From Alphaproteobacteria bacterium (GTDB lineage: Bacteria; Pseudomonadota; Alphaproteobacteria; UBA6615), in assembly GCA_021774575.1 (NCBI GenBank), contig JAJFIX010000031.1, positions 154,264-218,263 on the forward strand: a stretch of 64,000 nt of DNA. Reading direction: 5' to 3'. Positions 10,001 through 16,830 of this stretch are shown here, piece by piece (the first letter of the stretch is position 1; every line of letters starts with the position of its first letter). The position numbers and the translations under genes are program-made. The notes beneath the pieces were generated by a model, which was not told where the DNA came from, did not search any database, and saw only the letters and a program-made list of their open reading frames with translations.

Positions 10001-11410
10001 ATGTCAGATGTCTCGAATGTTCTAGATCTCATCAAGCAACATGATGTGCAATATGTGGATTTGCGCTTCACGGATCCGCGCGGCAAATGGCAGCACACCG
10101 CCCAGCATGTGTCGACGGTAAACGAAGATTGCTTTGTCGACGGTTTCTTTTTCGATGGCTCTTCGATTGCCGGCTGGAAAGAAATCAATGATTCCGACAT
10201 GATTTTGATGCCGGACGCGTCAACAGCGGTGATGGACCCGTTTACCGCACAGCCGCAACTCATCCTATTTTGCGACATTGTCGAACCTTCGACCGGCGAG
10301 CCTTATGCTCGTGACCCGCGGAGCGTGGCCAAACGTGCTGAAGCCTATTTGAAATCGACCGGCATCGGCGACACTGCCTATATGGGCCCCGAGGCTGAGT
10401 TTTTCGTCTTCGATGATGTCCGCTGGGATGTCTCGATGAACCGCATGTTTTATGAAATCGATAGCGAAGAAGGCCCCTATAATACCGGCAGTGAGTTTGC
10501 CAGCGGCAACTTTGGGCATCGCCCCCCTATCAAAGGCGGGTATTTCCCTGTGCCACCGGTCGATAGCATGACCGATTTGCGCGCCGAAATGGTCACCATC
10601 ATGGCCGAAATGGGCATGAAGATGGAAAAGCATCATCATGAGGTTGCCCCGTCGCAAAACGAACTCGGTTTCGTTTTCGATACCCTTGTCCGGACCGCGG
10701 ACAATATGCAGATATATAAATACGTCGTGCACATGGTTGCAGCCAGCCACATGCAGACGGCGACTTTCATGCCCAAACCGGTTCTCGACGATAATGGATC
10801 GGGCATGCACGTCCATCAATCGATCTGGAACGACGGCAAACCGCTGTTTGCCGGGTCGGGCTACGCCGATCTCTCCGAAACTTGCCTTTACTATATCGGC
10901 GGCATTATCAAGCATGCCCAAGCGCTAAATGCCTTCACCAACCCCAGCACCAATAGCTATAAGCGCCTGGTGCCGGGCTTTGAGGCACCAGTCTTGCTGG
11001 CCTATTCCGCTCGCAACCGGTCGGCATCCTGCCGTATCCCCCATTCCGCAAGCCCCAACGGCAAGCGAGTGGAAATTCGGTTCCCCGATGCCACGGCCAA
11101 TCCCTATCTCGCGTTCACAGCCATGCTGATGGCTGGCCTTGACGGAATTCAGAATAAAATCCACCCGGGCGATCCGATGGATAAGGATCTTTATGATCTG
11201 CCGCCGGAAGAATTGCGTGACGTGCCGACCGTTTGTCATTCGCTGCGCGATGCCCTCGACGCCCTCGACAATGATCGTGACTTCTTAAAGCAAGGCGGCG
11301 TGATGGATGATGATTTGATCGACGGTTATCTCGCGCTCAAACGAGAAGAAGTTATCTTATTTGAGCAGACACCTCATCCGGTCGAATTTCAGATGTATTT
11401 CTCGAGCTAA
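10001..11410 (+). CDS. glnA: Glutamine synthetase type I
   Basis: 469 residues. ATP-dependent synthesis of glutamine from glutamate and ammonia; cytoplasmic dodecamer. Visible: [13 protein letters not shown] and the [10 protein letters not shown] region at the N-terminus, EAEFFVFD and [15 protein letters not shown] for metal ligands, [11 protein letters not shown], the [12 protein letters not shown]/active-site loop, and [11 protein letters not shown] near residue 397 carrying the adenylylation tyrosine, so it is a GlnE-regulated GSI-beta enzyme. It is about 90 bases downstream of glnB and probably co-transcribed. The ATG is preceded by GAGGA. A strong terminator follows. Confidence 0.97.
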
Positions 11411-11435: not shown

Positions 11436-11475
11436 CCCCCACTTCAATTTTTCGAAGTGGGGGTCTTAGTTTTTT
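11436..11475 (+). terminator. Intrinsic terminator of glnA
   Basis: 10-bp perfect stem (11436-11445 with 11454-11463; CCCCCACTTC arm), an eight-base loop and a T-tract at 11469-11475. It ends the glnBA operon just before the methyltransferase gene. Confidence 0.9.
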
Positions 11476-11485
11476 GCCAATTCAT

Positions 11486-12238
11486 ATGCTTCAAGACGGT
11501 GCGCGAACCATGACAGCCTGCGGTGTCTGCAAAGGCGTGACCGAGGAATTTGTCCATAAGGGCGGCTCGAGATACGACAAATGCACCAATTGTGGATTTG
11601 TCTTTATGAACCCCATGCCGCCCGCGGGCCAACTGGATGAGCTCTACAGTGCCGGCGGCCCGCAACACCTACCGGATACCTATAGCAAATCAAGGTCGCG
11701 AGCTCGTCGCGCCTACATTCGAGCAATCGCCTTGCGGCGCTATTTCCGCGGCAAGGATGCCCTTGATTTCGGCAGCGGCGGTGGATTTATCGTCAATGCC
11801 TTGCAAAAATTCGGCGCCAAAAGCGCCACCGGCCTCGATATAGATAGTGTTGCCGTCGCCTACGCGCGCCGCCATTATGCTGGGTCTCAATTTTTTCTGA
11901 GCGGTTATGAAGATTTTGCCGCAAGCGGCCGGACTTTCGATTTTATATATTCATCTGAAGTGTTGGAGCATATCGGTGACATCGACGGAGTGATGTCCTT
12001 TTTACAGACGATTACGCGCCCCGGCGCGACGCTCTTTATTACCACGCCCGACATTGGCCATCCTGCCGTTCCCGCCAAAGTGGTTGACTGGCCCGTCCTA
12101 GCGCCGCCCCACCATGTTCAATTTTTTACGCAAGACTCGATTACCAAATTGTTTATTAATTATGGTTTCACTATAGAGAGAAGATATAATAAGCGCTCAG
12201 CCCCAACGCTCAAATTCGTCGCAAAAAAAATTAGATAA
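11486..12238 (+). CDS. Zinc-ribbon class I SAM-dependent methyltransferase
   Basis: About 250 residues. It starts with a four-cysteine zinc ribbon (CGVCKG...YDKCTNCGFVFMNP), then a Rossmann SAM-binding fold: ALDFGSGGGFIVNAL (motif I), TGLDIDSVAV, FDFIYSSEVLEHI (motif IV region) and LFITTPD. This layout occurs in methyltransferases of sugar, lipid or natural-product tailoring; the substrate is not evident. Possible starts are ATG 11486 and ATG 11510 (MTACGVC); both keep the zinc ribbon. The last ~30 bases are copied again at about 13693-13722, marking a segmental duplication. Downstream is the perfect palindrome GGCTGAATTCAGCC (12257-12270). Confidence 0.82.
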   Translation: MLQDGARTMTACGVCKGVTEEFVHKGGSRYDKCTNCGFVFMNPMPPAGQLDELYSAGGPQHLPDTYSKSRSRARRAYIRAIALRRYFRGKDALDFGSGGGFIVNALQKFGAKSATGLDIDSVAVAYARRHYAGSQFFLSGYEDFAASGRTFDFIYSSEVLEHIGDIDGVMSFLQTITRPGATLFITTPDIGHPAVPAKVVDWPVLAPPHHVQFFTQDSITKLFINYGFTIERRYNKRSAPTLKFVAKKIR

Positions 12239-12341
12239 GCAATGCATTTAGTAAACGGCTGAATTCAGCCAAAATTTTATACATTTATTCTAAGATCACC
12301 AATATACTGACGCCACTGTAATTATTGCCTTCAGGAATTTC

Positions 12342-13522
12342 ATGTCGGATAGCACTTACCCCGTCGATCAAACATTGGACTTTGTACCGCAATCTCCTCC
12401 ACCTCCTAAGAGTTTTTCCGATTCTGGTTCCCATGGGGGCACCAGTGGCAAGTTGGCGGTTGAATTCGACGGTAATGCCAGCGAATATTTTGGCATTTGG
12501 ATTGTTAATCTTCTACTCACAATTGTGACCTTGGGCATTTGGTCGGCGTGGGCCAAAGTGCGGCGTATGCAATATTTTTACGGCAATACCAGGCTCGGTG
12601 CCGATAATTTTGAATTCCTCGCCAGCGGATGGCAAATTTTTCGCGGACGCATCATCGCCATTGTGTTGTTGGTGGTGCTCTTTGCCAGTCAGTATATCAG
12701 CGCTTGGGCGCAACTTATTGCCACTCTAATTTTTATTCCGTTGTTTCCATGGATTGTCAATTTGTCTCTGCTTGTCTCTGCGGTTTCGCGCCGGAATGAT
12801 AATGTGGCGGAACATTCGATTTTCTTTTGCAGGAAATTACTGGGGTGCCTTCGGCGTTTTTGTCGCCATGCCGGCAGTCGGCATATTATCTTTCGGCCTC
12901 TTACTTCCCTTGGCTGGACAAATGGCGGCGAAAATATGTCGCTAAGAATTGCCGTTATGGCACAGCCGAATTTGAGGCGCACCCCGACGTCGGGAAATTC
13001 TACGCTGCTTTTTTCATAGCGTTCGGGGTGATGATAGCCGCGATTATCGTATTTGTGTTTCCACTCTTTGGCATCGCTGCCGAAAATACTCTGGATGCGA
13101 GCACGACAAAGAGCGCTGACACTGGATCGATTTTCAGATTTCTTGGACTGACTTTTCTATCGACGATCACCACCGCCATTTACTTTGTTTGTTTTATTGC
13201 CGCCCGCCAGATCTATCTCGCCCTCACCCGAAACGCTATTATCAATACGCTGCATCTCGAAGGCGGGCACCGTTTCGCCTCAAACCTATCGGGGGGCAAA
13301 CTCGCCTGGATTACAATTAGTAATATGGCCGTCGTTTTGTTTACCTCCGGATTGATGCAGCCATGGGCCGCGACCCGGCTATGGCGCTATCAGACAAGCT
13401 CCTACGGCGCCACGCCCGGCGTACCGGTCGACGAATTCGCCGATGAGCAGCGGGAGGCCGTGAGCGCTTTCGGTTCTGAATTCGGAGATATCGAAGGCTT
13501 TAATATTGGCATTGGTATCTAG
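12342..13522 (+). pseudogene. Frameshifted DUF898 (YjgN-like) membrane protein, decayed copy
   Basis: Reads as a near-twin of the intact gene at 13838-15013 but in three successive frames. It starts MSDSTYPVDQTLDFVPQSPP, shifts after PWIVNLSL, continues as RFRAGMIMWRNIRFSF, then shifts again at KYVAKNCRYGTAEF and ends GFNIGIGI. The first shift comes from a 10-base tandem duplication at 12761-12780 (TTGTCTCTG repeated); removing one unit restores NLSLRFR. The second is one extra A in the run at 12931-12934. The intact copy has neither. Unlikely to be translated whole. Confidence 0.9.
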
Positions 13523-13527
13523 TCGAA

Positions 13528-13695
13528 ATGGCCAGTTCACTTCTCATTACCGGTGATATATTCAATGAAAATAGTGCAAAGCCCTAACCGGCAGAGCTCA
13601 GCAAAAAAGAAGATTACGACGACAGTTCAATATTTCGTTGCGCCAGATCGATAACCTACATTCGACGGGATCAAATTTCGGCATCCGAAATCCTT
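13528..13695 (+). pseudogene. 5' remnant of M48 protease gene
   Basis: Aligns with the first ~170 bases of the intact protease gene at 15019: MASSLLITGDIFNENSAKP against MAATLPITGDLFEENSAKS. A TAA stops it after 19 codons (13585-13587). The match ends near 13695, where methyltransferase-derived sequence begins; this is the duplication junction. Confidence 0.85.
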
Positions 13696-13722
13696 AAATT
13701 TGTAGCGAAAAAAACTGAGTAA
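13696..13722 (+). pseudogene. 3' remnant of the zinc-ribbon methyltransferase gene
   Basis: About nine codons reading KFVAKKTE-stop, matching the KFVAKKIR-stop end of the intact methyltransferase at 12238. It marks the left end of duplication copy 2. Confidence 0.75.
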
Positions 13723-13837
13723 GGAAGGCATCTCGTAAGCGGCTGAATTCAGTCAAAAATTTTATGCATTTATTCTAAAATCACCAATATACTGTTCTCA
13801 TACTGGTCCCAGTGTGTTTATTTTCGCGAGGAATTTC

Positions 13838-15013
13838 ATGTCGGATAGCAGTCAACCAGTCGTTCAAACATTGGGCTCCGTACCTCAATCACCGTTGCCG
13901 CCTAAACATCGTACCGATTCTGGTTCCCATGATGACGGTAATGGCAAATTACCGATAGAATTCGATGGAAATGCCAGCGAATATTTTGGCATTTGGATTG
14001 TTAATCTTCTACTCACAATTGCCACTCTGGGTATCTGGTCGGCGTGGGCAAAAGTGCGGCGTATGCGGTATTTTTACGGTAATACCAGGCTCGGTGCCGA
14101 TAGTTTTGAGTTTCTCGCCAGCGGTTGGCAAATTTTTCGCGGGCGCATCATCGCCTTCGTACTGCTGGCGGCGCTCTCTGCCAGCCAATATATTAGCCCG
14201 TGGGCACAACTTTTTGCCACTCTTATCTTCATTCCCCTCTTTCCCTGGATCGTCAATTTAGCCCTTCGGTTTCGCGCCAGGATGACGATGTGGCGCAATA
14301 TACGGTTTTCGTTCAAGGGAAATTACTGGGGGGCCCTCGGCGTATTTGTTGCAATGCCGATTGCCGGTATATTTTCTGGCGGCCTGCTATTTCCTTTGGC
14401 GGGACAAATGGCGGCGAAATATGTCACCAAGAATTTCCATTATGGCACCGCCCAATTTGAAGCCGACCCAGATGTCGGAAAATTCTACGCCGCGTTCTTT
14501 ATCTCGATCGGTGTGATGATTGGCGCGGGAATTTTAATGATGATCCCAATCACTGCGGCCATTGTCGGAAGTGCTATGGCAGGGAGTGCGAAAAAAGGCG
14601 CAGACTTGGAAACGATTTTTGGGTCCCTTGGGCCAGCCTTTTTCTCAATGATCTTTGTCGCCATTTTCGTCTATGCTGTTGGGTTTATCGCCGCCAGCCA
14701 GGTCTATCTCGCCCTCACCCGAAATGCCGTTATCAATGCGCTGCAGCTCGAAGGCGGGCACCGTTTCGCCTCAAGTCTATCGGGAACCAAACTCGCCTGG
14801 ATCACCATTAGCAATATGGTCGTCGTGTTGTTTACCGCCGGTTTGATGCAACCATGGGCGGCGACCCGTTTGTGGCGCTATCAAACCAGCTGCTACGGCG
14901 CCACCCCCGGCGCACCGATCGATGAGTTCGTCGATGAACAACGCGAGGCCGTGAGTGCTTTTGGGTCTGAATTAGGGGATTTCGAAGGCTTTGATATTGG
15001 CTTCGGTATCTAA
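13838..15013 (+). CDS. DUF898 (YjgN-like) polytopic membrane protein
   Basis: 391 residues from the ATG at 13838 (MSDSSQPVVQ); the decayed twin has the equivalent ATG. A proline-rich cytoplasmic tail of about 35 residues precedes the DUF898 core: FDGNASEYFGIWIVNLLLTI, the WSAWAKVRRMRYFYGNT loop, and about six membrane segments, ending LWRYQTS and an acidic tail. The family's function is unknown. Five bases separate it from an M48 protease gene, a pairing also seen in other proteobacteria, which suggests the protease and membrane protein act together, perhaps in membrane protein quality control. This is the intact copy of a segmental duplication. Confidence 0.88.
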   Translation: MSDSSQPVVQTLGSVPQSPLPPKHRTDSGSHDDGNGKLPIEFDGNASEYFGIWIVNLLLTIATLGIWSAWAKVRRMRYFYGNTRLGADSFEFLASGWQIFRGRIIAFVLLAALSASQYISPWAQLFATLIFIPLFPWIVNLALRFRARMTMWRNIRFSFKGNYWGALGVFVAMPIAGIFSGGLLFPLAGQMAAKYVTKNFHYGTAQFEADPDVGKFYAAFFISIGVMIGAGILMMIPITAAIVGSAMAGSAKKGADLETIFGSLGPAFFSMIFVAIFVYAVGFIAASQVYLALTRNAVINALQLEGGHRFASSLSGTKLAWITISNMVVVLFTAGLMQPWAATRLWRYQTSCYGATPGAPIDEFVDEQREAVSAFGSELGDFEGFDIGFGI

Positions 15014-15018
15014 TCAAG

Positions 15019-16062
15019 ATGGCCGCTACATTGCCTATTACCGGTGATTTATTCGAAGAAAATAGCGCAAAATCACGCCCGGCAGAGCTCAGCAGCGAGG
15101 AAGACTATAGCGACACACTGAAATTGCGTTGCGACGGTACGACAACCCACATTGGTCGAGATCAGGTTTCGGTATCTGATCCCCTGGCCAATGTTCCTAG
15201 ACGGTTGGTTTTTTCCGATGGTCGTGTGCTGGTAACCCGGGATCATCAAGCTGTCGCGGAAATTTTTGACCAAGGGAGTGGCGCCAACTTAACATCCATT
15301 GTTGCATGGGCGGAAATTTTTCGACCGCGTATCATGGTCATCCTGATCTTGCTGTTTCTGGCCTCTATTATATCCCTGCGTTTTGCCCTCCCTGTCGCCG
15401 TCGACGTCGCCGCGCGAATGGTTCCGGCAAGCATGGAGGCAAGGCTTGGCGGCGTAGCGTTCGAATCCTTTGACCTCATCCTCAAAGACAGCGAACTCGA
15501 CGCGCAACGTAGTGATGAAGTGAGGGCATTGTTCGATGAAATTGTCGGCGCTTCCGACATCGATTTTCCGGTAGACATGCATATTCGCCAGGGTGGTTTT
15601 TTAAAGGCAAATGCCTTTGCCCTGCCCGGCGGTCCGGTCATCGTCACCGATGAGCTCATTAAATTGGCACCCAATGACGACGCGCTTGCCGGGGTTCTTG
15701 CCCATGAAATTGGCCATATAGAGGAGCGTCACGGATTGCGCCGCATGATGCGGGCGGCGGGCTGGGTCATCCTCGTTTCTGTGATCTCGGAGGAGGCCAG
15801 CGGGCTGTTTGAAGAGGTTGCCGCCTTCCCCACTTTGTTGATCGATCAGGCCTATTCGCGATCATTCGAAACCGACGCCGATGATCGGGCCATCGAGATT
15901 ATTGTGGCAATCGGCCGCGATCCCGCCGCATTCGCCGAAATGCTTAACTTAATTACCAAAGACTGCGGCCAGGCCTGTGACGGTGTAGATTGGCTTTCCT
16001 CACACCCTGCCCCTGGCGACCGAATAGAGCACATACGCGAGTATGGTAGCGGCGGCGAGTGA
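15019..16062 (+). CDS. Membrane-anchored M48 family zinc metalloprotease
   Basis: 347 residues. The N-terminal cytoplasmic region contains a short beta domain (RRLVFSDGRVLVTRDHQ). One membrane segment (VILILLFLASIISLRFALP, about residues 108-127) follows, then the peptidase domain with ALPGGPVIVTDEL, the zinc motif HEIGHIEERHG and the third ligand in RSFETDADDRAIE. CGQACDGVDWLSSHPAPGDRI is the usual M48 C-terminus. Related to the Oma1/HtpX group that degrades membrane or periplasmic proteins. It sits in an operon with the DUF898 protein. Its 5' end is present again as a remnant at 13528. Confidence 0.88.
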   Translation: MAATLPITGDLFEENSAKSRPAELSSEEDYSDTLKLRCDGTTTHIGRDQVSVSDPLANVPRRLVFSDGRVLVTRDHQAVAEIFDQGSGANLTSIVAWAEIFRPRIMVILILLFLASIISLRFALPVAVDVAARMVPASMEARLGGVAFESFDLILKDSELDAQRSDEVRALFDEIVGASDIDFPVDMHIRQGGFLKANAFALPGGPVIVTDELIKLAPNDDALAGVLAHEIGHIEERHGLRRMMRAAGWVILVSVISEEASGLFEEVAAFPTLLIDQAYSRSFETDADDRAIEIIVAIGRDPAAFAEMLNLITKDCGQACDGVDWLSSHPAPGDRIEHIREYGSGGE

Positions 16063-16830
16063 CTAGGTTTCCGACGGCCCGTCGACGCTAAGCAAATCAA
16101 CCTTCTCGTTATAAAAACAGAGCATGTCTTTTATTTTCAGGCATTCGTCCAGTGGGTCAGTGTAATACCAAACTAGGTCTGCATGAAATCGGGTGGGCGT
16201 GCGCACCGAAAAATATTTAGCCGCGCCTTTGTACGGACATGCGGTCCCTTTGTCGGAAGCTTCGAGAAAATCCATCGCAACATCATCGCGCGGAATGTAA
16301 TAGCGGGTAACTTTTCCGGTCTCGAAAAGGAACCTGGCGCGGCGCGTCTCGGCGAGAACAACTCCGTCAACCTCTACTCTGACCCGGCGATGGCTTTCGA
16401 TGACATCGACCCGCACTTGAGGATCGCGCGGGTGAACAATGACGACCTCGTCTTCCTCCAGCCATTGATCGGCAGCAGCCCATTCGAGGGATAGATATCC
16501 CTTTATGGCGCCAACAATTTCGGCGGGGTCCCGATAGGCCCAGGCGGCATTTTCAACGGATTTCCCACCTGCCGCGATCGTCCAATATGATGCGCTACCT
16601 TTATAGGGGCAAACGGTCGTATGTGGCGTTGACGTAAAGCATTCCTGCGTAATATCCGCGATTGGGACGTAATAGCGGGGCGGTCGAGGGCCTTCTTTGA
16701 CCAAAATAGCGTTCTGTGTATCAACCAGGGTTACACCGCCCAGTAAGGCGCGCACCCGCTTTGATGTCGGCGTAATTTTGATCTCGGGAATTGTCGTCGT
16801 GTCGGGCAATGCTTCCCCTCCATATTTCAT
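16063..16830 (-). CDS. Tandem DUF427 domain protein
   Basis: 255 residues made of two DUF427 domains (about residues 20-125 and 135-245), each with the family core: V-x-L-x-D-T/E, R-Y-Y-V/I-P, then T-x-C-P-Y-K-G-x-A-x-Y-(W/F) (TVCPYKGSASYW and TACPYKGAAKYF) and W-x-Y-x-D-P. DUF427 folds as a small beta barrel of unknown biochemical role. It starts at the convergent M48 stop, abutting without a gap, and is preceded by a secreted protein gene on the same strand 12 bases upstream, so the two are probably co-transcribed. Confidence 0.88.
   Translation of the reverse strand: MKYGGEALPDTTTIPEIKITPTSKRVRALLGGVTLVDTQNAILVKEGPRPPRYYVPIADITQECFTSTPHTTVCPYKGSASYWTIAAGGKSVENAAWAYRDPAEIVGAIKGYLSLEWAAADQWLEEDEVVIVHPRDPQVRVDVIESHRRVRVEVDGVVLAETRRARFLFETGKVTRYYIPRDDVAMDFLEASDKGTACPYKGAAKYFSVRTPTRFHADLVWYYTDPLDECLKIKDMLCFYNEKVDLLSVDGPSET

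Follow-up and report, generated by a model that had tools for sequence, protein, structure and literature searches.

The window, that is, the whole stretch of 64,000 nucleotides that was analysed, carries a segmental tandem duplication of about 1.49 kb that includes a complete DUF898 gene. Very probably this duplication is old, both DUF898 genes were kept under constraint for a long time, and the breakage of the first copy came late. The sequence-only reading, in which the array had been described as a recent 1.5-kb duplication with one decaying copy, found a real feature and outlined it correctly, but it dated the event wrongly. Otherwise this is routine genome evolution, a tandem duplication of the ordinary sort in which one copy became a pseudogene late. 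It offers a readable case in which selection maintained both members of a tandem pair before one was lost, and an internal control, the head of an M48 protease gene, lies inside the same unit.

The two copies stand head to tail at 12209-13688 and 13693-15179 of the forward strand, 4 bases apart and with a single joint. According to a BLAST self-search and a global alignment, they are colinear with 77.4% identity over 1498 columns and six gap openings; the alignment is continuous with one break, and its ends fall within a few bases of the limits proposed from sequence reading. The local alignment score of the pair is 1300, whereas none of 92 equally sized random pairs of stretches from the window scored above 30. 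As well, a self-search of the window at E < 1e-4 returned this tandem pair as its sole repeat, and a repeat finder recovered the same register, in which the copy spacing moves from 1484 through 1496 to 1491 via small indels.

Following a glutamine synthetase gene (10001-11410, forward strand, as are the other genes of the array), an intact class I methyltransferase gene (Methyltransf_23) occupies 11474-12238, as supported by its open reading frame, the alignment and Pfam PF13489 (E 3e-24). The unit begins inside this gene, from about 12209, and comprises its last ~30 nt, a whole DUF898 gene and the start (~54 codons) of an M48 protease gene, a content that had been read from the sequence and that both the alignment and Pfam bear out. 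In copy 1, a leader (12239-12341) is followed by a DUF898 pseudogene (12342-13522) and a truncated M48 head (13528 to ~13688). Copy 2 starts with a methyltransferase remnant (~13693-13722), of which only the 3' end with its stop is kept, and continues with an intact gene for a YjgN-like multi-pass membrane protein of the DUF898 family (13838-15013); its right end lies ~54 codons into an intact M48 metallopeptidase gene that has a DUF7092 N-terminus (15019-16062; PF01435, E 4e-26; PF23368, E 1e-11). Both remnants lie close to the positions reported before, 13528-13695 and 13696-13722. Because the complete methyltransferase sits with copy 1 and the complete M48 gene with copy 2, neither copy is "the original".

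At the joint, the right end of the unit meets its left end, and the M48 head is fused to the methyltransferase tail, while the intact versions of both genes flank the array. When both ancestral flanks were compared with this novel joint, it was found to be blurred over 13682-13695 (~14 bases), since the copies have diverged by 23% and the exact base is no longer resolvable. Microhomology was looked for at the breakpoints: the resemblance of the joint to both flanks is weak over this interval, and the divergence hides any short homology. A hairpin with a 7-bp stem (13675-13691) falls exactly at the joint in copy 1 and is not formed by the corresponding M48 sequence of copy 2; its position there is probably due to chance.

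The DUF898 gene of copy 2 covers positions 2-336 of the 336 in profile PF05987 (E 1e-103; 347 bits vs a cut-off of 28). That of copy 1 matches the same profile as two frame-separated halves (E 9e-43 and 6e-41), carried by the open reading frames 12342-13019 and 12827-13522, and passes through three reading frames in all. Its first lesion is an exact 10-bp tandem micro-duplication (12762-12771 / 12772-12781), visible in the sequence and as an alignment gap against copy 2, which shifts the frame by +10, and the second is a run of four A at 12931-12934, compared with three in copy 2, which shifts it by +1. As a consequence, the frame from the ATG leaves family sequence after ~140 codons and terminates at 13017-13019. 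The M48 remnant, identified by translation against copy 2 and by tblastn (51-53% over 62-75 aa), reads for 19 codons and then meets a TAA at 13585-13587. Since none of these lesions is present in copy 2, they postdate the duplication, which is the order of events that had been proposed. The same proposal placed frameshifts and a stop in copy 1; both frameshifts are indeed in DUF898, while the stop belongs to the M48 remnant, and the 389 codons of the copy-1 DUF898 that can be compared with copy 2 include no in-frame stop. Annotators should label 12342-13522 a pseudogene and regard 13528-13722 as debris of the joint.

Between the two DUF898 genes, dS is 0.67 (95% CI 0.54-0.84) and dN/dS is 0.21 (0.15-0.29), or 0.53 and 0.28 with a transition bias of 3; the resulting ranges, dS 0.53-0.67 and dN/dS 0.21-0.28, span transition biases of 3 to 1. 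Differences by codon position number 60, 50 and 127, with an excess at third positions. Had copy 1 been neutral throughout, about 8 in-frame stops and a pairwise dN/dS of at least ~0.5 would be expected, against the zero stops seen. In a simple simulation in which the divergence was split equally between the copies, zero stops had a probability of 0.004 if half of the branch was neutral and a borderline 0.05 if a quarter was. From this dS, the low dN/dS and the lack of in-frame stops, it follows that the duplication is old and that both copies were long constrained, and the latter two values limit the relaxation to the late part of the branch. The earlier dating as recent would therefore suit the breakage only. 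The closest outside DUF898 has 42% identity, so the branches are unpolarised and the age is a relative one.

The M48 head, dead in copy 1 from birth, serves as the internal control. Compared on copy-2 positions, it has a dN/dS of 0.48-0.65 and one stop, in a small sample of 52 codons with a dN/dS CI of 0.20-1.04, whose contrast with DUF898 is not significant alone (Fisher p 0.06). At columns that are at least 90% conserved in the DUF898 family, there are four departures seen in copy 1 alone, two of them just after the first lesion, and none seen in copy 2 alone, which fits a late relaxation of copy 1. Apart from such highly conserved columns, polarising the changes by outside homologues was uninformative (of 80 differing columns, 37 place copy 1 closer and 41 copy 2). 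Gene conversion between the copies was also considered: identical codons form runs of up to 17 (permutation P 0.003); for synonymous codons alone the maximum is 16 (P 0.08), and conversion is therefore not claimed.

In a 59-row DUF898 protein tree, the window copies are sisters with an SH-aLRT support of 100, with end branches of 0.19 and 0.12 and a path between them of 0.31, compared with 2.0 to the next sequence; the grouping with different families that the sequence-only reading had named as counter-evidence is not seen. All outside sequences are at most 42% identical to the window copies. The best 80 outside loci from genome_contigs (L021-L100), which are Alphaproteobacteria as far as titles tell and are all distant (36-42% identity), have a single DUF898 gene each. 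Among the 24 family genomes, by which alone the order was represented, a strong match occurs only in the source genome, the sole member of its genus there. Among 385 class genomes, eight others match at E <= 1e-40, with one match each; the same DUF898 neighbours are seen in these eight. Since the copies are sisters with full support and the outside loci are single-copy, the duplication probably arose within the source lineage after its split from all sampled relatives.

Directly downstream of DUF898, an M48 gene is present in 78 of the 80 best outside loci, and the remaining two lie near a contig end. Copy 2 and its M48 gene match the order and close spacing of these 78 alphaproteobacterial pairs; the difference here is the extra broken DUF898 upstream, which is absent from all fetched outside loci. 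The conserved pairing suggests that DUF898 and the M48 metallopeptidase may act together. We know of no established function for DUF898, a multi-pass membrane family, and a literature search by title for DUF898 or YjgN found no functional paper.

Starting from an ancestral order of methyltransferase, DUF898 and M48, a single illegitimate event, short-homology or homology-free, would have duplicated 1.49 kb in tandem. This would have produced a second complete DUF898 gene with its own leader and left two useless fragments at the joint, the M48 head and the methyltransferase tail. For most of the subsequent period, purifying selection presumably kept both DUF898 genes functional, perhaps because of dosage or redundancy, while the M48 head drifted. 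Late in this history, copy 1 would have been disabled by the 10-bp slippage duplication and the 1-bp insertion, and copy 2, still adjoining the intact M48 gene, would carry the function. The DUF898 of copy 1 was parted from a working M48 gene at the outset, which may be the reason that copy 1, and not copy 2, was lost.

With its head-to-tail copies, one novel joint, joint fragments and complete middle gene, the array differs in nothing essential from known tandem segmental duplications with truncated joint genes. In bacteria, recombination soon removes most tandem duplications, whereas the present array has lasted to 23% divergence. It likewise resembles duplicate-gene pseudogenes arising by nonfunctionalisation, with private frameshifts in one copy and the other intact; unlike a breakage directly after duplication, the one here appears to have followed long constraint on both copies. 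A literature search on tandem duplication and pseudogenes in general found nothing specific.

Alternatively, recombination might have brought in the second copy from a sister lineage that had diverged, as a merodiploid or xenolog, with the divergence accrued in two genomes and copy 1 decaying after arrival. High dS, low dN/dS and a lack of stops would be expected in this case too, and the source genome is the sole one of its genus compared, but we consider such an import unlikely. The elevated dN/dS and the stop in the M48 head of copy 1 look as if this piece had been truncated since divergence began, although with a wide error, and more steps would be needed for a foreign piece to land exactly in head-to-tail register with its ends matched. 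The drift of the M48 head and the register thus favour duplication in place. Less likely still, the living organism has an intact copy 1 whose frameshifts were introduced by errors of sequencing or assembly. In favour of this, the assembly is a draft in 46 contigs, the lesion at 12931-12934 is a homopolymer length difference of a kind that could be a base-call error, and the dN/dS and zero stops would suit a working gene; however, an exact 10-bp micro-duplication is atypical of reads and breaks the frame alone, and only copy 1 departs from the highly conserved residues, twice just behind that lesion.

A working split paralog, in which the conserved leader would still drive the broken copy 1, yielding one DUF898 half-protein or two that modulate the intact copy 2 and M48 pair, seems very improbable to us. 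That the duplication is recent and copy 1 then decayed fast is scarcely credible: there are only two frameshifts in its DUF898 and the breakpoints are still recognisable, but the dS and dN/dS contradict it, and the concentration of differences at third positions is unlike free decay. Hardly any weight can be given to an assembly artefact, either a spurious tandem repeat or a chimera of two strains, since, draft assembly or not, a 23% difference is too large for the false expansion of one locus, and a joint that fuses unrelated gene ends within one contig and includes a diverged, stop-bearing remnant is unlike strain mixing.

From the methyltransferase tail to the DUF898 start, the leaders (repeat family D7) are 83% identical over 103 aligned bases, compared with ~56% at synonymous sites, and a 39-nt block (12271-12309 in copy 1) reaches 95% identity between the copies. 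Judged from the sequence, this conservation fits both genes having kept their regulation. Just past the methyltransferase stop, the leader of copy 1 also contains a small hairpin, GGCTG-AATT-CAGCC followed by AAAATTTT (12257-12270), which recurs in copy 2 at 13741-13754 with one G-T pair; it is a possible methyltransferase terminator, duplicated with the tail. A terminator scan of the region gave a modest excess of terminator-like sites, of which none but the 12257-12270 hairpin was retained as a candidate, and a promoter scan of the region gave promoter-like sites near the shuffled mean.

Finally, a gene encoding a DUF427 protein (16063-16830, reverse strand) lies next to the array, its stop adjoining the M48 stop tail to tail. 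This protein has two domain copies with a residual 70% DNA repeat at a 372-nt spacing (16271/16643), which represents an internal domain duplication.
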